Shown piece by piece: positions 16,317-60,142 of a stretch of 64,000 bases of DNA. Within the stretch, counting starts at the first letter, position 1, and each line of letters begins with the position of its first letter. The notes under the pieces are model-generated. The model ran no database searches, had not been told where the DNA came from, and was given only the letters and a program-made list of their open reading frames with translations. The DNA is from Phycisphaerales bacterium (GTDB lineage Bacteria; Planctomycetota; Phycisphaerae; Phycisphaerales; UBA1924): positions 20,445 through 84,444 of the forward strand of contig DASPKU010000014.1 of the NCBI GenBank assembly GCA_035627955.1, written 5' to 3'. The position numbers were made by a program, and so were the translations under genes.

Positions 16317-17699
16317 TCAGGTTCCGCCAAGGCCCAGTTCGCTCGGCGTGTTCAGCCCGAACCGCCCCGTCACCCGCAGCAGGTTCAGGTAGAACAGCTT
16401 CTGGTTGAACCGCTCGTTGCTCAGCTGCAGCTGCGCGCTCAGCAGCTGGTCCTGCGCAGTGAGCTGGTCGAGGTTGCTCGCGTTGCCAACCCGGTATTGC
16501 GCCACGGCCAGGTCGTACGCCCGCTGCGCCGCGGTGACGCTGATCTCCAGCTCCCGCAGCTTGCTCGTAGAGGTGATGAAGTCCTCGTACGCGAGCGTTA
16601 CGTCCTCGTGGATCTGGCGGGCGAGTCGGTCCTGCTGCATCACGCTCTGCCGCAGGCCCGACAGCGCATCGCGGACGTCCTGGTAGGTCTGCGCGGCGTC
16701 AAACACCGGCTGCAGCAGCGACGCCGTGAGCGACCACGGGTTGCCGCTGCCCGCGCTCGAGTAGAGCAGGAAGGACGTGTTGAGGTTCACGCTCGGGTAG
16801 TACTGGGCGTATGCGCCCTTGACGCCAATGGACGCCACCTCCACCGACCTGCGGGCCGCGGCCAGATCCAGCCGATGATCCACCGCGTCCTGCTCGAACT
16901 CGATGGCGGGCCTGGGCGATGTGGGCGGGGCGAACTGGTCCGCGAGCGGGTTGTCGATGTAATCGAGCCCCAGCAGGAACGCGAGCGTGGTGCGTGCCTG
17001 GCGGGCGTTGCTCTGGGCCTGCATCAGCGACACGCGCGTGGAGGACTCGTCGGCCTGCGCCTGAGCCAGGTCCAGCGGACGGGCGATGCCCAAGCGCGTG
17101 CGGGCCTCCACGTCGCGCAGCTGCTCGGCCCGCAGCGCGAGCGAGTTCTGCAGCACCCGCACCTGCTCCTCGGCGGTGAGCACCTGGTAGAAGCTGTTCG
17201 CGACCCCCAGCAGCACCGTCTGCTGGAGGTCCAAAAGGTCGAGGCGCGAAACCTCACTCAGCACCCGCGCCTGCTCGAGGTTGCGGATCGACCGCAGGTT
17301 GAACACTTGGATGGACCCGCCGACGCTCGCGCTGGTGGAGTTGCGCGCTGTCGAGCCGTTGACGTTGAGGTTGTGCGAGGCTGACGCCGACACGCTTGGA
17401 AGGAACACGTTGGCAGCGCGGGCGCGGGCGATGAGCGACTGGAGGTACTGCTCCCCGCGGATCGAGAGTTGCTCGTCGTTCTGGTTGGCGAGGTAGAGGG
17501 CGTGCTGGAGGGTGAGGGGCTGCTCGGTGCTCGGGGCCTCCACCCGCTCGCGCGGGGCGTGCTCGTCGAGGACGGCGCGGTAGGTGTCGACCTCGGCGCG
17601 TTGGTTGACGGTGCAGCCGGCGAGCAAGCCGAGCATCAGCACCGGGGCGATGAACCACCGAGATGAGGACATCTCGGTGGCACGGATCGGTTTACTCAT
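16317..17699 (-). CDS. TolC-family outer-membrane efflux lipoprotein
   Basis: A 460-residue outer-membrane factor. A lipoprotein signal ends at LLAGC (Cys ~28). Two copies of the TolC helical repeat follow, with long coiled-coil stretches (NLEQARVLSEVSRLDLLDLQQTV; QARTTLAFLLGLD) and barrel strands (PSVSASASHNLNVNG; PSVNLNTSFLLYSS). It should form the channel for the MacA-MacB-like pump encoded just upstream; its ATG overlaps the permease stop by 8 bp. Residues ~6-15 (RATEMSSSRW) come from a dispersed palindrome (17655-17683) that lies between the start codon and the signal helix. Confidence 0.9.
   Translation of the reverse strand: MSKPIRATEMSSSRWFIAPVLMLGLLAGCTVNQRAEVDTYRAVLDEHAPRERVEAPSTEQPLTLQHALYLANQNDEQLSIRGEQYLQSLIARARAANVFLPSVSASASHNLNVNGSTARNSTSASVGGSIQVFNLRSIRNLEQARVLSEVSRLDLLDLQQTVLLGVANSFYQVLTAEEQVRVLQNSLALRAEQLRDVEARTRLGIARPLDLAQAQADESSTRVSLMQAQSNARQARTTLAFLLGLDYIDNPLADQFAPPTSPRPAIEFEQDAVDHRLDLAAARRSVEVASIGVKGAYAQYYPSVNLNTSFLLYSSAGSGNPWSLTASLLQPVFDAAQTYQDVRDALSGLRQSVMQQDRLARQIHEDVTLAYEDFITSTSKLRELEISVTAAQRAYDLAVAQYRVGNASNLDQLTAQDQLLSAQLQLSNERFNQKLFYLNLLRVTGRFGLNTPSELGLGGT
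17655..17683 (-). repeat. GTGCCA-flanked hairpin, translated in TolC N-terminus
   Basis: Minus strand: GTGCCACCGAGATG-TCCT-CATCTCGGTGG. It lies in frame 15 bp after the start codon of the TolC-like gene. A near-identical element sits at the same place in the lptE gene (22293-22321), and others lie at 43269 and 36021. Confidence 0.85.
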
Positions 17700-18900
17700 G
17701 ACGCAGGGCCTCGATGGGGTCCAGCTTGGCGGCCCGCCACGCAGGGTAGAAGCCGAAGAACACGCCCACGGCCGCGGAAAAACTGAGGGCCAGGATAATG
17801 CTGAAGGGCTCCACCAGCGACTGGAAGTCGGGCAGCAGCATCGGCAGCAGGCGCGCCCCGCCCACGCCCATCGCCACACCCAGCAGCCCGCCGATGCCCG
17901 ACATCAGCAGCGACTCGAGCAGGAACTGGCTGAGGATGTCCTTGTTCTTGGCCCCGATCGCCTTACGCACGCCAATCTCGCGGGTGCGCTCGGTCACCGT
18001 TACCAGCATGATGTTCATGATCCCGATGCCGCCCACCAGCAGCGAGATCCCAGCGATACCCCCCAGCAGCACTGTGAACGTCCGGCTCATCGCGTTGGCC
18101 TCTTCCAGCATCGCGGCCTGGTTGCGGATGTCGATCGTGTCGGGCATACCCGGCTGCACGCGGTGACGTTTGCGGATCAGCGACGCGATATCCTCCTGCA
18201 CCTTCGCGAGGTCCCCGCCCTCCTCCGCCTGGATCGCGATCTCCCGCAGCCGGTCCTGCCCCAGCACCTGCTTCATCGCCGTGGTGTGCGGGATGATGAT
18301 CTGGTCGTCGGGGTTGAACCACCCCTGGTCGCCCTTGCTCTTCATCACGCCGATCACGCGGAAGTTGATGCCGTTGATCTTGATGACCTTGTCGATGGGG
18401 TCGATGTCGCCGAACAGGTTGGTGGCCGTGACGGGCCCGATCACCGCCACCCGCGCCATGCGATCGGCGTCCAGGTCGGTGAACTTCTGCCCCTTCTCGA
18501 TCTTGAAGTCGCGCAGCGTGAAGTACGTCAGGGTCGTCCCGACCAGGCTGCTCCGCGTGTTCTTGTTCAGGTACTTGATCTGCCCGCTGCCCCCCACCAC
18601 CGGGGCGATCGCGTGCACGCCCTCCACCCCCAGCAGCGCCTCCGCGTCCTCCAGCGTGAGGTTCTGCTGCGTGCCCGACATCACGCCCATGCTGCCGCGC
18701 TGCCCGGGGCGGACGATCAGGAGGTTCGTGCCCATGGCCGACATGCGGTCCATGATGCTCTTCTTGGCCCCCGCGCCAATGGCGAGCATGGAGATCACCG
18801 CGCCAACGCCGATGATGATGCCCAGCATCGCCAGCACGCTCCGCAGCTTGTTGGCCGCGAGGCTCTTGAGGGCCACCTTCACGATCATCCACAGCATCAT
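17692..18900 (-). CDS. MacB-like ABC transporter permease
   Basis: A 402-residue permease of the MacB/FtsX type: transmembrane helix 1 at ~20-42 (LAMLGIIIGVGAVISMLAIG), a large periplasmic MacB_PCD domain (~45-270), then three helices at ~280-390 containing GGIGIMNIMLVTVTERTREIGVRKAIGA, the family signature, and the terminal AWRAAKLDPIEALRHE. Unlike E. coli MacB the ATPase is a separate gene (18897-19601), whose stop overlaps this start by 4 bp (ATGA). It should couple ATP hydrolysis to export through the TolC-like channel. The substrate cannot be told. Confidence 0.9.
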   Translation of the reverse strand: MMLWMIVKVALKSLAANKLRSVLAMLGIIIGVGAVISMLAIGAGAKKSIMDRMSAMGTNLLIVRPGQRGSMGVMSGTQQNLTLEDAEALLGVEGVHAIAPVVGGSGQIKYLNKNTRSSLVGTTLTYFTLRDFKIEKGQKFTDLDADRMARVAVIGPVTATNLFGDIDPIDKVIKINGINFRVIGVMKSKGDQGWFNPDDQIIIPHTTAMKQVLGQDRLREIAIQAEEGGDLAKVQEDIASLIRKRHRVQPGMPDTIDIRNQAAMLEEANAMSRTFTVLLGGIAGISLLVGGIGIMNIMLVTVTERTREIGVRKAIGAKNKDILSQFLLESLLMSGIGGLLGVAMGVGGARLLPMLLPDFQSLVEPFSIILALSFSAAVGVFFGFYPAWRAAKLDPIEALRHE

Positions 18901-22255: not shown

Positions 22256-22819
22256 ATGACTGAGCCGAACGTGCGAGTACCGGAGAAGAAAACCACCGAG
22301 ATGAACTCATCTCGGTGGCACGTGCTGCTGCTCGCACTGCTACTGCTCACCGGTTGCTCCTCCAACCCATCCAAGGGCTACTCGTTCGCCTCCACCTACC
22401 CCGAGGGCGTGCGCACCGTCACCATCCCCGTGTTCGACAACCGCACCTACTACCCCGGCCTGGAGGTCCAGCTCACCGAAGCAGTCATCAAGCAGGTGCA
22501 GGCCAGCAGCGGCCTCAAGGTGGTCTCGGCCGCGAACGCCGACTCCCGCCTGATCGCCACCATCACTGATGCCCAGCTCCGCCGCCTCACCCTGGACAAG
22601 ACCACGGGGCTGGTGCAGGAGCAGGCGTTCCAGCTGACCATCGACTTCGAGTGGCGCGACGCCCGCTCGGGCAAGGTCCTGATGTCGCGCAAGAACTTCG
22701 CCGCCACCGACACTTTCGTGCCCGCCCGCCCCACGGGCGAACGGATCGAGACGGCCCAGCACGGCGCCATCCAGCGGCTTGCCCGGGATGTGGTGGCCGA
22801 AATGCGGGCCAGCTGGTAA
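22256..22819 (+). CDS. lptE: LPS-assembly lipoprotein LptE
   Basis: A 187-residue lipoprotein with signal ending LLTGC (Cys at ~37). The mature part begins SSNPSKGYSF, followed by GVRTVTIPVFDNRTYYPGLEVQLTEAVIKQV, the LptE/RlpB opening, and ends with an amphipathic helix (HGAIQRLARDVVAEMRASW). LptE plugs LptD and delivers LPS to the outer leaflet. Its position 12 bp after a BamD-like gene and upstream of ftsH fits envelope biogenesis. An AGGA site is ~9 nt before ATG 22256. Residues ~13-21 (TTEMNSSRW) are encoded by a dispersed palindrome (22293-22321), giving an unusually long pre-signal N-terminus. Confidence 0.82.
   Translation: MTEPNVRVPEKKTTEMNSSRWHVLLLALLLLTGCSSNPSKGYSFASTYPEGVRTVTIPVFDNRTYYPGLEVQLTEAVIKQVQASSGLKVVSAANADSRLIATITDAQLRRLTLDKTTGLVQEQAFQLTIDFEWRDARSGKVLMSRKNFAATDTFVPARPTGERIETAQHGAIQRLARDVVAEMRASW
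22293..22321 (+). repeat. GTGCCA-flanked hairpin, translated in LptE N-terminus
   Basis: ccaccgagatg-aact-catctcggtgg plus cac. It is the same palindrome as at 17655 in the opposite orientation, with a changed loop. Because the stem is palindromic, both genes read it as TEM(S/N)SSRW. Confidence 0.85.
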
Positions 22820-34572: not shown

Positions 34573-36018
34573 ATGCACGCGTGGACAGCAGGCATGGTCG
34601 GGCTGGTGATTCCGCTCATTGCGAGCGCGCCGGCGGCCGCGCAGTGCGGCTGGGCGTGGACCATCGGCGCCCCCCTCCCCAGCCCTCGTTCGGGCGCCGC
34701 CATGGCCTACGACAGCGGCCGAGGGTGCGCGGTTCTGGTCGGGGGCACCCTCGCCGACGGTACCGTCTCCAATGCCACCATCGAGTTCGACGGCGCCGCA
34801 TGGCAGCTCAAGTCGCCCTCCGGACCCCTGCCGCGGCGCACGGGGCATGCGATGGCGTACGACTCCACCCGCGGCGTGATCGTCCTCTTCGGCGGCCTCA
34901 CCGGCGCGCCGCAAGCACCCAGCAGCACCACCTACGAGTTTGACGGCACCACGTGGCGCGTTGTGCCCACGCCCGCCAGTCCTCCCGCGCGCCGGTGGCA
35001 CGCCATGACCTATGACCCGCTGCGGCAGGTCGTCGTCATGCACGGGGGCCTCGCTGCCGATGGACTTGTCGCCGACACCTGGGAATACAACGGCGTCACG
35101 TGGACCCAGCGCAGCGCCGGCGGCGCTGGCGCCCGCTGTCAGCACTCCATCGCCTACGACCCCAGCCGCCAGAAGGTCATCCTCTTCGGCGGCGCCACCT
35201 GGCTCGACCCCGTTCAGTACGGGACCATGACATGGGCGTGGGACGGCACCACGTGGACCGAAGTGCCCCCGGGGGCAAGCGGCAATCCGCCCGCCCGCAG
35301 CGGCGGAGCCATGGCGTGGTCGCCCGCGGCCCAGCGGCTCGTGCTCACCGGCGGCTTCGACAGCCTGGGCCCTATCACCACCACGTCGGCGCTAACCCCG
35401 CAAGGCTGGAGCACGACTGCGACCACAGGCAACCCGCCCGCCCGCCGCGCCGGCTGCATGGTCTGGCACGCTGGGCTCGGCCGCTTCGTCGTGGCTGGCG
35501 GGTCAGCAGCCTCAGGCGGCCTCCTCACTGAGGCGTGGCTGCTCGCCCCGGGCGTGGCCTTCACCAGCGGCCCCGGGTCACAGCAGGTGAACGAGGGCCT
35601 GTCCGTCACCTTGACCGCCAGCGTCAGCGGCGCCGTGAGCGGGTGGCAGTGGCGCCGCGACGGCGCGCCCATCAGCAACGACGCCCGCGTCTCCGGCGCC
35701 ACCTCCAGCAGTCTCCTCATCGACCCCGTCACCGCCGCCGACCAGGGCGTGTACGACGTCGTTGCCATGACCGCCTGCGGTCCGCTGCCCAGCCCCGCGG
35801 CCGTGCTCACCATCGTCCCCGCCTGCGGAACCTCCGACTACAACGGCGACGGCGACATCGGCACCGACCAGGACATCGAGGCCTTCTTCGCCTGCCTGGG
35901 CGGCACCTGCTGCGACACCTGCCACCCCGGGGGCTCAGACTTCAACAACGACGGCGACGCCGGCACCGACCAGGACATCGAGAGCTTCTTCCGAGTGCTG
36001 GGCGGCAACCCCTGCTGA
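34573..36018 (+). CDS. Secreted kelch/Ig protein with paired GC-type dockerin
   Basis: A 481-residue exported protein. Signal peptide ~1-24 (ending ASAPAAAQ). Residues ~25-330 are six kelch-type repeats (PRSGAAMAYDSGRGCAVLVGG; RRTGHAMAYDSTRGVIVLFGG; CQHSIAYDPSRQKVILFGG), a beta-propeller. Residues ~333-415 are an Ig-like domain (VNEGLSVTLTASVSGAVSGWQWRRDG ... ADQGVYDVVA). The C-terminal ~60 residues are two dockerin repeats with Cys clusters. The architecture suggests a surface-bound binding protein or galactose-oxidase-like fold without visible catalytic residues. A TACGCT promoter element is at 34531-34536, 36 nt upstream. Confidence 0.85.
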   Translation: MHAWTAGMVGLVIPLIASAPAAAQCGWAWTIGAPLPSPRSGAAMAYDSGRGCAVLVGGTLADGTVSNATIEFDGAAWQLKSPSGPLPRRTGHAMAYDSTRGVIVLFGGLTGAPQAPSSTTYEFDGTTWRVVPTPASPPARRWHAMTYDPLRQVVVMHGGLAADGLVADTWEYNGVTWTQRSAGGAGARCQHSIAYDPSRQKVILFGGATWLDPVQYGTMTWAWDGTTWTEVPPGASGNPPARSGGAMAWSPAAQRLVLTGGFDSLGPITTTSALTPQGWSTTATTGNPPARRAGCMVWHAGLGRFVVAGGSAASGGLLTEAWLLAPGVAFTSGPGSQQVNEGLSVTLTASVSGAVSGWQWRRDGAPISNDARVSGATSSSLLIDPVTAADQGVYDVVAMTACGPLPSPAAVLTIVPACGTSDYNGDGDIGTDQDIEAFFACLGGTCCDTCHPGGSDFNNDGDAGTDQDIESFFRVLGGNPC

Positions 36019-36020
36019 GC

Positions 36021-36088
36021 CGTGCCACGGAGATGGCGACATCTCGGAGGCTTTCCTTGCGTGCCATGGCGACGTCCTCGTCGCTATG
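36021..36088. repeat. Two GTGCCA-flanked hairpins with different stems
   Basis: gtgcca-cggagatg-gcga-catctcgg (36022-36050 region) and gtgcca-tggcgacg-tcct-cgtcgcta-tg (36061-36088) stand head to tail after the kelch-dockerin stop. They share flank and loop layout but not stem sequence. The second is repeated almost exactly at 53932-53955. Confidence 0.8.
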
Positions 36089-42269: not shown

Positions 42270-43205
42270 ATGTGCCGCTTCGTGCTCTACCAGGGCGTGC
42301 CCCTGACTATCGCCTCGCTGGTGACCGAGCCCGCCAACTCGATCATCAACCAGAGCGTGCACAGCAAGGAGAGCGAGGAGCCGCTCAACGGCGACGGCTT
42401 CGGCGTCGCGTGGTGGGCGCCCGACCTCTCGCACAAGCCCGCGGTGTTCCGCTCGGTGTCGCCGGCGTGGAGCAACATGAACCTGCTGGAGCTCGCCCGC
42501 GTCACCCGCAGCGGCACGGTCATGGCCCACGTGCGGGCCGCCACGCGCGGCATCCCCGTGACCGAGCTCAACTGCCACCCCTTCGCCGCGGGGCCGTACG
42601 CCTTCATGCACAACGGCGACGTCGCCCGCTTCGGCGAGATCCGCCGGCGCGTGCTCGCGGACCTCAGCGACGACTCCTTCCATGCTGTCAAAGGCTCCAC
42701 CGACAGCGAGCACCTCTTCGGCGTCTTCCTCGATCAGGTCGCCAAGGCCGGCGGCACGTGCGTCGGCGCCTCGGGGGGGAAGGTCAAGGCTCACCCCGGC
42801 AAGCAGGTGCAGGCCATGGCCGCGGCCCTGGAGCGCACCGTCGAGTACATCACCCGCCTCTCCAAGCACGCGGTCAACGGCGGTGCCAAGCGCGACGACG
42901 CCAAGCCCGAGGAGGACGAGGACTGCTACCTCAACATTGCCGTGAGCGACGGCGACCACTCGGTGGCCTGCCGGTACACCACCGCGGATGAGCCCTCATC
43001 GCTGTACGTGCACACCGGCCGCCGCTACGTCTGTGAGGGCGGGCTGTGCCGGATGGTCTCGCCCGAGAAGGGGCACGGGGCGGTGATCGTCTCCAGCGAG
43101 CCACTCAGCGATGACCCGGGGTGGCAGAAGATCCCCCGCAATCACATGGTGGTGGTCAGCCACGAGCGGGAGTGTGAGGTCCGGGAGATGCAGGTGGCTA
43201 CCTGA
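42270..43205 (+). CDS. Class II glutamine amidotransferase (YafJ-like)
   Basis: A 311-residue N-terminal-nucleophile hydrolase. Cys2 (MCRFVLYQG) becomes the catalytic N-terminal cysteine once Met is removed. Other landmarks are NGDGFGVAWW, HVRAATRG, NCHPFAAGPYAFMHNGDV and TDSEHLFGVFL. It should release ammonia from glutamine; stand-alone YafJ-type enzymes act on gamma-glutamyl compounds of unknown identity, and EgtC is a relative. Length fits the family. The GGAG ribosome-binding site 8 nt before the ATG lies at the edge of a large inverted repeat, so folding could control translation. Confidence 0.88.
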   Translation: MCRFVLYQGVPLTIASLVTEPANSIINQSVHSKESEEPLNGDGFGVAWWAPDLSHKPAVFRSVSPAWSNMNLLELARVTRSGTVMAHVRAATRGIPVTELNCHPFAAGPYAFMHNGDVARFGEIRRRVLADLSDDSFHAVKGSTDSEHLFGVFLDQVAKAGGTCVGASGGKVKAHPGKQVQAMAAALERTVEYITRLSKHAVNGGAKRDDAKPEEDEDCYLNIAVSDGDHSVACRYTTADEPSSLYVHTGRRYVCEGGLCRMVSPEKGHGAVIVSSEPLSDDPGWQKIPRNHMVVVSHERECEVREMQVAT

Positions 43206-43268: not shown

Positions 43269-43319
43269 CCACCGAGATGAGGACATCTCGGTGGCACGAT
43301 GAAGACATCTCGGTAGCAC
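43269..43319 (-). repeat. Tandem GTGCCA hairpin, one full and one partial copy
   Basis: A full copy identical in stem and loop to 17655 (43269-43297), then a copy missing its outer half (43298-43319). They sit 40 bp upstream of the YihY gene, outside any frame. Confidence 0.8.
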
Positions 43320-43358: not shown

Positions 43359-44492
43359 ATGGCCGACTACTCCACAAAGGGCAGGTCCGAGCGCGAGCCC
43401 AGCGGCGCCCACGACAACACCGGCAAGAAGGGCAAGGGCGGCATCCTCAAGCTCTTCAAGAGCGCCATCACCGCGTTCTTCAAGAACCGGTCGCTCACGC
43501 TCGCGGCCTCGCTGTCCTACTACGCCATCTTCTCCGTCGCCCCCATCATCCTCATCATGCTCGCCATCGTCGGCCGCATCTTCGGCGACACGCAGGCCCG
43601 CCAGCAGATCATCCAGCGCGTCTCCTCGGCCGCGGGCCCGAAGACCGCCGAGTTCATCGATGAGCTGCTCCGCAACGCCAGCGAGCCCAAGCAGGGCATC
43701 TGGAGCATGGTCGTCGGCTTCGTGCTCCTCTTCATCGGCGCCACCGGCCTCTTCCAGCAGCTCAAGGACGCCCTCAACCAGGTGTGGAACGTCCGCCCCA
43801 AGCCCGGGCACGCCATCGGCCAGCTCATCCGCACCCGCCTCATCGGCTTCGGCCTCGTGCTGCTGATGGGCGTCGCCCTCATGGCGCTGCTCGCCTCCAG
43901 CGCCGTCGTCTCCGGAATGGCCGAGCGCATCCAGAGCGTCGTCGCCATCCCCGAGCCCGTGCTGCACATCGTTGACCTCGCAGTCAGCTTCGGCATCATC
44001 TCAACGCTGCTCGCCGTCATTTACCGCTACCTGCCCGACGCCAAGATCGGATGGCGCGAGACCTGGCGCGGCGGCCTCATCACCGCAGCGCTGCTCGCCC
44101 TGGGCAAGGTCGGCCTGGGCCTGTACCTCGGCAAGGCCGCCGTGAGCTCCTCCTTCGGGGCCGCGGGCTCCATGGCCATCGCGCTCGTATGGATCTACTA
44201 CTCCTCGGCCATCCTGCTGCTTGGCGCCGAGATGACGCAGTGCTACGCGGAGATGTACGGCAAGCGCATCGAGCCGGCCGACTGGGCCGAGTCCGCCACC
44301 GTCAAGGAGGTCCCCAAGCAGCCCGGCGACGAGGGCTACGTCAAGCCCTGGAAGCGCAAGGACTGGGGCCGCGAGGACGAGAAGCACGGGAAACACCACG
44401 ACGCCGGGACTGAGAAGTCCTCGACGAAGTCCCGGGTTGGCGGCGACAAGCACGCAGCGAAGACCAACGCGAAGGACAGCCGCGACGCCTAA
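43359..44492 (+). CDS. YihY/BrkB-family membrane protein
   Basis: A 377-residue integral membrane protein with six helices from ~40 to 285 (LAASLSYYAIFSVAPIILIML; WSMVVGFVLLFIGATGLFQQL; GFGLVLLMGVALMALLA; IISTLLAVIYRYLPD; MAIALVWIYYSSAILLLGAEMTQCY). The LAASLSYYAIFSVAPI and WIYYSSAILLLGAE-T motifs define the family, once mis-assigned as RNase BN; its role is unknown. The C-terminal ~60 residues are a hydrophilic tail. Its residues ~346-363 (HDAGTEKSSTKSRVGGD) are encoded by a repeat whose other copy lies at 45686. Confidence 0.88.
   Translation: MADYSTKGRSEREPSGAHDNTGKKGKGGILKLFKSAITAFFKNRSLTLAASLSYYAIFSVAPIILIMLAIVGRIFGDTQARQQIIQRVSSAAGPKTAEFIDELLRNASEPKQGIWSMVVGFVLLFIGATGLFQQLKDALNQVWNVRPKPGHAIGQLIRTRLIGFGLVLLMGVALMALLASSAVVSGMAERIQSVVAIPEPVLHIVDLAVSFGIISTLLAVIYRYLPDAKIGWRETWRGGLITAALLALGKVGLGLYLGKAAVSSSFGAAGSMAIALVWIYYSSAILLLGAEMTQCYAEMYGKRIEPADWAESATVKEVPKQPGDEGYVKPWKRKDWGREDEKHGKHHDAGTEKSSTKSRVGGDKHAAKTNAKDSRDA
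44397..44447 (+). repeat. 51-bp repeat A, translated in the YihY tail
   Basis: 47 of 51 bases match 45686-45736. It contains a nested hairpin (gggact ... agtccc). It lies in frame near the 3' end of the YihY gene. Confidence 0.85.
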
Positions 44493-58945: not shown

Positions 58946-60142
58946 ATGAAGTTGATGCCCTTTGGCCGAGCAGCCTGTGCCCTCCTGTCCGCCGCGGCGC
59001 TGCTCGCTCTCCCCTCCTGCACGCGCCACCAGGACGGTCAGCCGCTCAACGTCAAACTCTCCTTCGGCGAGGTCGGCACCTCCCCCGGCCAGTTCAGCTA
59101 CCCCCGCTGCCTCGACGTCGACCGCTCCGGCGTTTGGGTCATCGACAAGCTCGCCCGCGTGCAGCGCCTTGACGCCGTCACCGGCGAAGGGCGCGGCGGC
59201 TGGCAGATGCCCGAATGGAAAGAGGGCAAGCCCACGGGCATGACCGTGTGGGACGCCGAGGGCTCCGACGGTCCCATCGTCTTTGTCGCCGACACCCACT
59301 ACTTCCGCGTCATGGTGTACGACGGCGGCTCGCTTGCCCCCGGGCGCGAGGGCGAGGGGCTGGGCGCTCTGCTCACCCGCTTCGGCGAGTACGGCAACGG
59401 CCCCGGCCAGTTCGTCTTCCCCACCGACATCGCCGTGCTCCCTACGCCCGACGGCAAGGCCATCGCCCGCCTCTACGTCAGCGAGTACCAGCACAACGAG
59501 CGCATCAGCGTCTTCGAGCCGAAGTCGCCCGTCACGCGCCAGCAGCTCATCGACGCGGCAAAGGGCGGCGACCTCGGCCCCGCGCCCTCGCCCTTCGAGT
59601 TCAAGTTCTCCTTCGGCAGCCAGGGCGACTCTGCCTCCGCCGACACCATCCAGTTCAACCGCCCGCAGTCGATCGCCATCGACACCGCCCGCCAGGAGCT
59701 CGTCGTCAACGACGCCTGCAACCACCGCGTCGGCCGCTTCACGCTCGACGGCAAGCTCATCGCGTGGATCAACCCCGATTGCACGACAGGCCCCGCGATC
59801 GGCCAGTTCGCCTACCCCTACGGCCTGGCGCTGCTGGGCGATGGCACCGCCCTCGTCTGCGAGTTCGGCAACCACCGCATCCAGCGCATCGACCTGGCCA
59901 GCGGCGCGTCGATGGGCACATGGGGCCAGCTCGGCCGCCAGCCCGGCCAGCTCTCGACGCCCTGGGGTGTCGCCGTGAGGGGTGACCTCGTGTACGTCCT
60001 CGATAGCGGGAACAACCGCGTGCAGGCATTCGAGAAGCCGCGCTTGAAAGAGAATGTCACCGGCACTTCCGCAGTGAAGAGCACGATCATGCAGGGCCAT
60101 GATCGTGGCACGGATGATCGCAGCACAGGAGGTGCCGGTTGA
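58946..60142 (+). CDS. NHL-repeat lipoprotein
   Basis: A 398-residue lipoprotein. The signal ends LALPSC. The mature part carries NHL-type propeller blades: GQFSYPRCLDVDRSGVWVIDKLARVQRLD; GQFVFPTDIAVL; FNRPQSIAIDTARQELVVNDACNHRVGRF; GQFAYPYGLALLGDGTALVCEFGNHRIQRID; GQLSTPWGVAVRGDLVYVLDSGNNRVQAFE. It may bind a surface ligand or scaffold the proteins encoded downstream. ATG 58946 is used; ATG 58955 has TAGGAT 7 nt upstream and is a good alternative. The C-terminal tail (STIMQGHDRGTDDRS) is translated from a dispersed hairpin. The stop overlaps the next start. Confidence 0.85.
   Translation: MKLMPFGRAACALLSAAALLALPSCTRHQDGQPLNVKLSFGEVGTSPGQFSYPRCLDVDRSGVWVIDKLARVQRLDAVTGEGRGGWQMPEWKEGKPTGMTVWDAEGSDGPIVFVADTHYFRVMVYDGGSLAPGREGEGLGALLTRFGEYGNGPGQFVFPTDIAVLPTPDGKAIARLYVSEYQHNERISVFEPKSPVTRQQLIDAAKGGDLGPAPSPFEFKFSFGSQGDSASADTIQFNRPQSIAIDTARQELVVNDACNHRVGRFTLDGKLIAWINPDCTTGPAIGQFAYPYGLALLGDGTALVCEFGNHRIQRIDLASGASMGTWGQLGRQPGQLSTPWGVAVRGDLVYVLDSGNNRVQAFEKPRLKENVTGTSAVKSTIMQGHDRGTDDRSTGGAG
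60081..60111 (-). repeat. GTGCCA-flanked hairpin, translated at the NHL C-terminus
   Basis: Minus strand: GTGCCA-CGATCATG-gccctg-CATGATCG-TGC. It shares the GTGCCA flank with 17655 and 36061 but has a third stem sequence. It lies 30 bp before the NHL stop. Confidence 0.75.

Follow-up and report, generated by a model that had tools for sequence, protein, structure and literature searches.

The DNA analyzed here, a stretch of 64,000 nucleotides hereafter referred to as the window, lies on contig C14 of a draft genome (4.26 Mb in 23 contigs, 95.7% complete). The named relatives of this genome's genes are planctomycetes, mostly Phycisphaerales. The window carries two lipoprotein genes, a TolC-like gene and lptE, whose 5' ends contain the same palindrome. 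These gene names follow the preliminary description of this DNA, together with PF02321 and PF04390. A scan of the window with the pattern CCACCGAGATG-NNNN-CATCTCGGTGG gave exact copies at 17655-17680, 22293-22318 and 43269-43294, and a copy with two mismatches at 36025-36050. The first of these reads CCACCGAGATG-AGGA-CATCTCGGTGG and the second CCACCGAGATG-AACT-CATCTCGGTGG, each followed by CAC on the forward strand. With up to three mismatches allowed, the pattern has four matches in the window and none in any of 100 dinucleotide shuffles. A version of the pattern with a 7-nt loop found nothing; the loop is 4 nt long. The single match of the window to Rfam at the gathering threshold is a tRNA.

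Table 1 Features of the window that bear on the palindrome, which is interpreted in the text as a REP-type repeat (family A) with a sister family B.
Feature	Position	Strand	Remarks
TolC-like lipoprotein gene with REP copy	16317..17699	-	Start codon shares bases with the stop of macB-like, the gene upstream
Family-A REP copy, inside the 5' end of the TolC-like gene	17656..17683	-	Foot GTGC at 17683-17680; loop TCCT
macB-like ABC permease gene	17692..18900	-	Stop codon 11 bp ahead of the palindrome in the TolC-like gene
lptE gene with REP copy at codons 12-22	22256..22819	+	From translation and homologue alignment
Family-A REP copy, inside the 5' end of lptE	22294..22321	-	Foot GTGC at 22321-22318; loop AGTT (AACT on the + strand)
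Family-A copy, 2 arm mismatches	36022..36049	+	A few bp past the stop of gene 34594-36018
Third perfect family-A REP copy	43270..43297	-	In the gap that separates called gene 42270-43205 from called gene 43359-44492
Degenerate family-A copy, 4 arm mismatches	43292..43319	-	Overlaps the end of the third copy
Hairpin like sister family B: GTGC foot, 10-bp stem, 6-nt loop	60082..60111	-	Inside the 3' end of called gene 58946-60142

The palindrome in the TolC-like gene and in lptE

In both genes, the palindrome stands in frame between the predicted start codon and the lipoprotein signal peptide. The N-terminus of the TolC-like protein, encoded on the reverse strand, reads MSKPIR-ATEMSSSRW-FIAPVLMLGLLAGC, and that of LptE reads MTEPNVRVPEKK-TTEMNSSRW-HVLLLALLLLTGC. 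Translation thus bears out the preliminary description, which had reported one hairpin in frame before two signal peptides, in opposite orientations relative to the two host genes, with both genes reading TEM(S/N)SSRW (TEMSSSRW in the TolC-like protein and TEMNSSRW in LptE). As single-stranded DNA, the copies in the TolC-like gene and in lptE are predicted to fold into hairpins of -14.5 kcal/mol (z -6.7) and -12.5 kcal/mol (z -5.0), respectively. The loop AACT of the lptE copy (22304-22307), found in one of the 114 copies aligned below, turns the encoded TEMKTSRW into TEMNSSRW; it may reflect drift or selection on the n-region of the signal peptide, and is compatible with either.

The preliminary description had proposed a comparison of orthologues, in which relatives that lack the palindrome and start downstream of it would point to an annotation error. 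The insert is absent from all 13 aligned LptE homologues (62 were found) and from all nine aligned TolC homologues, which were among the 120 listed of 313 found. Seven of the nine TolC homologues retain, as MS.., the tolC start at the ATG overlapping the macB-like stop. The insertion therefore lies within an ancestral frame and the tolC copy is no annotation error; this copy is likely translated. Its position, 11 bp past the macB-like stop, is a usual one for REP sequences. In lptE part of the concern stands: the N-termini of the homologues are highly variable, too much so to decide between the upstream and the inner ATG, and a start at the ATG within the palindrome is possible.

If extended to both genes, such a start would mean that the copies are untranslated and that each lipoprotein gene begins at the palindrome's own ATG (MSSSRWFIAP.. 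and MNSSRWHVLL..), the insertion having supplied a new start. This inner ATG is in frame in both genes, and in lptE it would place 18 residues before the lipobox cysteine, near the 18-25 of most aligned homologues, while the upstream ATG gives 33. However, the upstream tolC start is the one kept in seven of nine homologues, and a Shine-Dalgarno-like AAGGA precedes the upstream ATG of lptE, whereas the inner ATGs of both genes lack any such sequence at the customary spacing. We consider inner starts in the two genes rather unlikely and retain translation from upstream as the preferred reading for tolC.

A directed hairpin in more than one hundred copies

Perfect 9-bp arms occur at 83 places in the whole 4.26-Mb draft, and the 26-bp pattern, at up to two mismatches, at 107. 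The same pattern at the same threshold has no copy in 60 related genomes, 36 of which belong to the same family but to different genera. The GTDB contig collection, which may omit the window's own genome, contains no exact match. The earlier view of the palindrome as a dispersed element of mobile type is upheld, with more than 100 copies across the genome. The suggestion that two independent insertions were unlikely by chance fares less evenly: the shuffles exclude a chance pattern, but the coincidence has to be weighed against this large number of copies.

For a consensus, we aligned 114 copies with at most four arm mismatches, taken from the window and from stretches fetched around copies; this set may miss some imperfect genome copies lying outside the stretches scanned. 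Read on one strand, the repeat is a directed unit, 5'-(C)GTGC-CACCGAGATG-TCYT-CATCTCGGTG-3', followed by a pyrimidine-rich tail. This unit, hereafter family A, is 28-30 bp long, comprises a 10-bp stem and a 4-nt loop, and is predicted to form a strong hairpin when single-stranded. GTGC is the foot of 102 of the 114 copies, and the loop is TCCT in 53 and TCTT in 41. A C precedes GTGC in 91% of the copies, and a G directly follows the stem in 57%; in the latter, the last C of the foot can pair, and CGTG could be named as the foot. Sister family B and the hairpins of relatives, both described below, favor GTGC. Because its copies are nearly identical, family A shows little covariation (7 compensatory cells of 1140), and the change of the stem centre between families A and B is the better evidence. 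At C7:189393-189504, three family-A copies lie head to tail with a 45-bp spacing and near-identical spacers, which suggests local tandem amplification. Roles as a DNA-uptake sequence, a chromosome-segregation site (matS/Noc-like) or a CsrA site were considered and dropped, the unit being a directed hairpin with a fixed foot, and GGA being absent from about a third or more of the loops.

The placement of the copies was described relative to genes called by a simple codon-usage caller trained on the window, and the resulting statistics, which cover stretches selected for carrying copies, describe the surroundings of copies rather than the whole genome. Outside called genes lie 92 of the 114 copies and inside them 22, while the coding fraction of the same DNA is 0.845. 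Compared with the numbers expected from gap bases, given in brackets, 29 extragenic copies lie in convergent gaps (17.9), 14 in divergent gaps (21.7) and 48 in same-direction gaps (51.4), with one more at an edge (p 0.007 for the gap-class distribution). In same-direction gaps, 32 of the 48 copies are oriented with the genes (p 0.03). A gene on the copy's own strand precedes 62 of the 92 extragenic copies, and 24 of these 62 lie within 12 bp of its stop. This placement, mostly extragenic with a preference for gene 3' ends, is that of REP sequences, which PMC3733652 describes as lying mostly between genes and near gene 3' ends.

Of the 22 copies inside genes, five fall in the first 30 codons, 13 are mid-gene and four are close to the C-terminus. 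Three of the mid-gene copies are read through by a low-scoring ORF, C12:54812-55519, which is probably spurious. As judged by eye, a signal peptide follows three of the five N-terminal copies (TolC-like, LptE and C7:181909). The other two, judged to precede none, lie in a PdeM-like and an LpxB-like gene, also named by eye. The family-A consensus is free of stops in five of its six frames, and the frame that contains TGA is used by a single degenerate copy. A gene on C21 that resembles NADH dehydrogenase has two in-frame copies. Its protein was aligned with homologues (12 of the 120 listed matches, own protein included); the nearest among the matches listed, at 84% identity, shares the second insert (HRDEDISVAR) and is without the first, and the remaining 10 are without either. 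Since this insert is shared, one copy or more probably predates the divergence from the 84% relative and has persisted, translated, within a functional gene. In a ResB-like protein, the insert is absent from 13 relatives; the region aligns well and the site is a length-variable loop. In a debranching-enzyme-like protein it is absent from five relatives, in a region that aligns poorly. Comparison with the PDB gave nothing beyond a 5-residue gap near the insert for an acyl-CoA-ligase-like protein and no match for a BshC-like protein. The proteins of C7:181909-182940 and C8:13934-14149 share a similar 16-residue stretch with cysteines after it, which resembles a C-terminal module repeated among exported proteins.

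A RAYT gene between sister hairpins

The PF01797 (Y1) profile, which covers RAYT proteins, has nine matches in the genome and none on contig C14, in agreement with the statement that no mobilizing gene is visible in the window. The preliminary description had advised a search for a RAYT gene elsewhere, and one was found on contig C3. The protein encoded at C3:77465-78061 passes NF047646 REP_Tyr_transpos with 104 bits against a cut-off of 80 and matches E. coli TnpA-REP (4er8) with an E value of 3.9e-10. It has the HuH and Y motifs of RAYT/TnpA-REP proteins, with H62, H64, Y136, N140 and P141 invariant among 16 aligned sequences. The gene is flanked by three hairpins of the form GTGC-CACGATCA(C/T)G-loop-C(A/G)TGATCGTG, of which two lie upstream and the third, at the 3' end, provides the stop codon of the gene. 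Several RAYT matches of relatives likewise show TGA near the C-terminal end of the alignment.

These hairpins define family B, which has 27 matches in the genome at up to two mismatches; four of these are the opposite strand of a listed place, leaving 23 places (4-nt loop). Families A and B agree in their foot, stem ends, loop and pyrimidine tail, and differ in the stem centre. A pattern of this shared scaffold has 118 matches in the genome and none in the 60 relatives. The other eight Y1 loci have no perfect GTGC-foot hairpin within 300 bp, and no family-A copy flanks any of the nine. An action of the C3 RAYT on family A is for this reason deduced from the likeness to family B. Several IS200-like Y1 genes (on C2, C11 and C12) have, less than 500 bp away, long near-identical direct and inverted repeats of roughly 40 to 400 bp; these have no sequence kinship to the GTGC hairpins.

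RAYT matches are present in 39 of 61 genomes, own genome included. Titled genome records were also scanned, and the best 80 of 466 relatives were kept. The titles of these 80 name Phycisphaerales, Phycisphaerae, Phycisphaeraceae, Phycisphaera or unspecified Planctomycetota, save four (one Planctomycetia, one Planctomycetales and two titled only bacterium); this list sets no bound on the distribution, since sequences of this kind went into the query and the best 80 of 466 were retained. From 109 fetched RAYT loci, 14 duplicates were dropped, which left 95 distinct loci with the own locus excluded. Around them we collected perfect hairpins with arms of at least 8 bp and loops of 3-8 nt within 300 bp of the RAYT gene, the foot being allowed to enter the stem by up to two bases. 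A GTGC foot was found on 98 of the 118 hairpins so defined. These lie at 41 of the 95 loci, on both sides of the gene in 29, and the other 54 loci have no perfect GTGC-foot hairpin. In 20 dinucleotide shuffles, by comparison, GTGC-foot hairpins averaged 0.40 and never exceeded 2. With the own locus included, hairpins farther off on the same contigs have the GTGC foot in 15 of 58 cases, and the feet of described REPs, GTRG and CGTC, are rare near the genes (GTAG 1/122, GTGG 2/122, CGTC 1/122).

The share of loci with a GTGC foot declines with distance from the C3 RAYT, from 25/46 at an identity of at least 45% to 13/36 at 40-45% and 3/13 below 40%. The stems of these hairpins are diverse, with 43 distinct 10-nt starts among 75 hairpins. 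By comparison, GTGC is followed by C in all, then by A in 95%, then by C or T. The commonest starts of the tails are CT, CG, CC or TC.

Proposed origin of the repeat and its relation to known REP systems

We interpret the palindrome as a REP-type repeat with a GTGC foot, a 10-bp stem and a 4-nt loop, likely copied and inserted as single-stranded DNA by the RAYT that C3 encodes between the sister hairpins, and we give this reading a probability of roughly 0.8. By analogy with characterized RAYTs (PMC8266576, PMC6006769), the enzyme would bind the folded single-stranded hairpin together with its 5' foot, cut beside the hairpin and join it elsewhere. The foot tetranucleotide of IS200/IS605-type and REP systems is thought to be a guide that chooses the DNA cut site. 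We infer that the C3 RAYT, or a close relative of it, would read GTGC as such a guide and mobilize family A. The two lipoprotein copies would then be chance insertions that were retained because a signal peptide can lengthen its n-region by about ten residues and just one of the six frames has a stop. Survival where an n-region accepts about ten extra residues is the simplest account of the repeat at both genes, and it explains the same peptide before two unrelated signal peptides without special targeting. For annotation, the warning follows that such N-termini may be repeat-encoded.

The preliminary description had instead proposed a specific relation to exported proteins, which the element would target or an RNA hairpin at codons 5-20 would regulate. 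Three of the five copies in the first 30 codons do precede a signal peptide, but they are three of 114 overall, 17 of the 22 in-gene copies lie elsewhere in genes, and the insert occurs in none of the aligned LptE and TolC homologues. Since so few copies stand at signal peptides, targeting is unsupported, and we hold this reading as a whole to be extremely improbable. A different selective account would see in the repeat a transcription terminator or another 3'-end RNA hairpin, placed by selection and not by a transposase. The preference for gene 3' ends and the orientation of the pyrimidine-rich tail in same-direction gaps fit such a role, as does the T run that follows the stem in some copies (C18:29175, C19:104745, C21:62279). 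T runs are nevertheless found in few copies, the tails being mostly mixed C/T. Moreover, the stem and loop are near-identical in sequence with a fixed foot on one side, copies also lie mid-gene, in divergent gaps and in both orientations, and the 60 relatives have none. A terminator origin thus appears quite improbable, and mobilization of a REP-type hairpin remains the reading that we prefer.

The repeat resembles known systems in most respects. The size and copy number expected of a REP (a palindrome of 20-40 bp in many copies) agree with 28-30 bp and 107 copies at up to two mismatches. PMC3733652 and PMC6006769 describe GTAG REPs with their RAYT (REPtrons), which, as here, are mostly intergenic near gene 3' ends, have an unpaired 5'-foot tetranucleotide and include some in-frame copies; their transposase gene is flanked by the repeat. 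A RAYT gene flanked by the same repeats is found here for family B, whereas family A flanks no Y1 gene. In contrast to GTAG and GTGG REPs, the foot is GTGC in 102 of 114 copies, which does not fit GTRG. The CGTC REPs, including Rickettsia RPE-4 and RPE-6, are likewise similar in their short stem (8-9 bp), 4-5 nt loop and in-frame insertions into genes (PMC3733652). However, the end of the present repeat is (C)GTGC and not CGTC, and CGTC repeats are reported in PMC3733652 without a flanking transposase, which family B has. Class 3 TnpA-Y1 proteins of Planctomycetes and Acidobacteria are associated with CnGA-footed hairpins (PMC6006769) and share with this system a planctomycete Y1 protein and unusual hairpins in many copies, but the C3 RAYT has a Y motif of class 2 type (YIHENP) and passes REP_Tyr_transpos, and GTGC misfits CnGA.

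REPs, RAYTs and in-frame REP insertions are thus already known, and the N-terminal insertions may be extragenic, as noted in 2013 (PMC3733652). The GTGC foot is absent from the main text of PMC3733652 and of PMC6006769, and a literature search found no paper that links Phycisphaerales with repetitive extragenic palindromes or a tyrosine transposase. Because it resembles a REP and its foot is that of neither named superfamily, we file the repeat as a variant of the REP/RAYT kind, set apart by its GTGC foot.

With some reserve, we lean towards a broader proposal, in which Phycisphaerales would carry a third tagged REP superfamily, the GTGC REPs. In it, free divergence of the stems would contrast with a foot, GTGC-CA(C/T), that remained linked to its RAYT, the guide-reading stretch of the RAYT would have been remodeled, and in-frame copies would add peptides (TEMKTSRWH, RATEMSSSR, HRDEDISVAR) to host proteins, signal peptides included. 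For E. coli TnpA-REP, residues W94, Q95, E100, H101 and R104 are discussed for guide reading (PMC6006769). In a phmmer alignment of the C3 RAYT to 4er8, with equivalence of numbering assumed, W94 and Q95 are replaced by G and R, H101 and R104 correspond to H and R, and the C3 protein has six extra residues between these two pairs. In this extra stretch (GGG[FY]DR), GGG, D and R are invariant in 16 aligned relatives. The altered stretch fits a changed guide and provides a residue-level hypothesis on how RAYTs read it. A guide-pairing rule is published for one RAYT (Marinomonas), under which a GTGC guide would predict cuts at GC or GA. This rule may not be transferable to the GTGC hairpins, because the tails of the relatives most often start with CT, CG, CC or TC. 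A GTGC guide that stays constant beside RAYTs with differing stems would be a natural experiment for the guide model.

A further Y1-type gene, at C17:22034-22507, has the motif YVLNQQ and was judged by eye to be class-3-like. It is flanked by the hairpins ATGGCCGC..GCGGCCAT and ATCGCCGCG..CGCGGCGAT, whose foot is GGGC, and similar hairpins lie at C12:54488 and C12:54573. This gene and its hairpins may form a second REP system with another foot.
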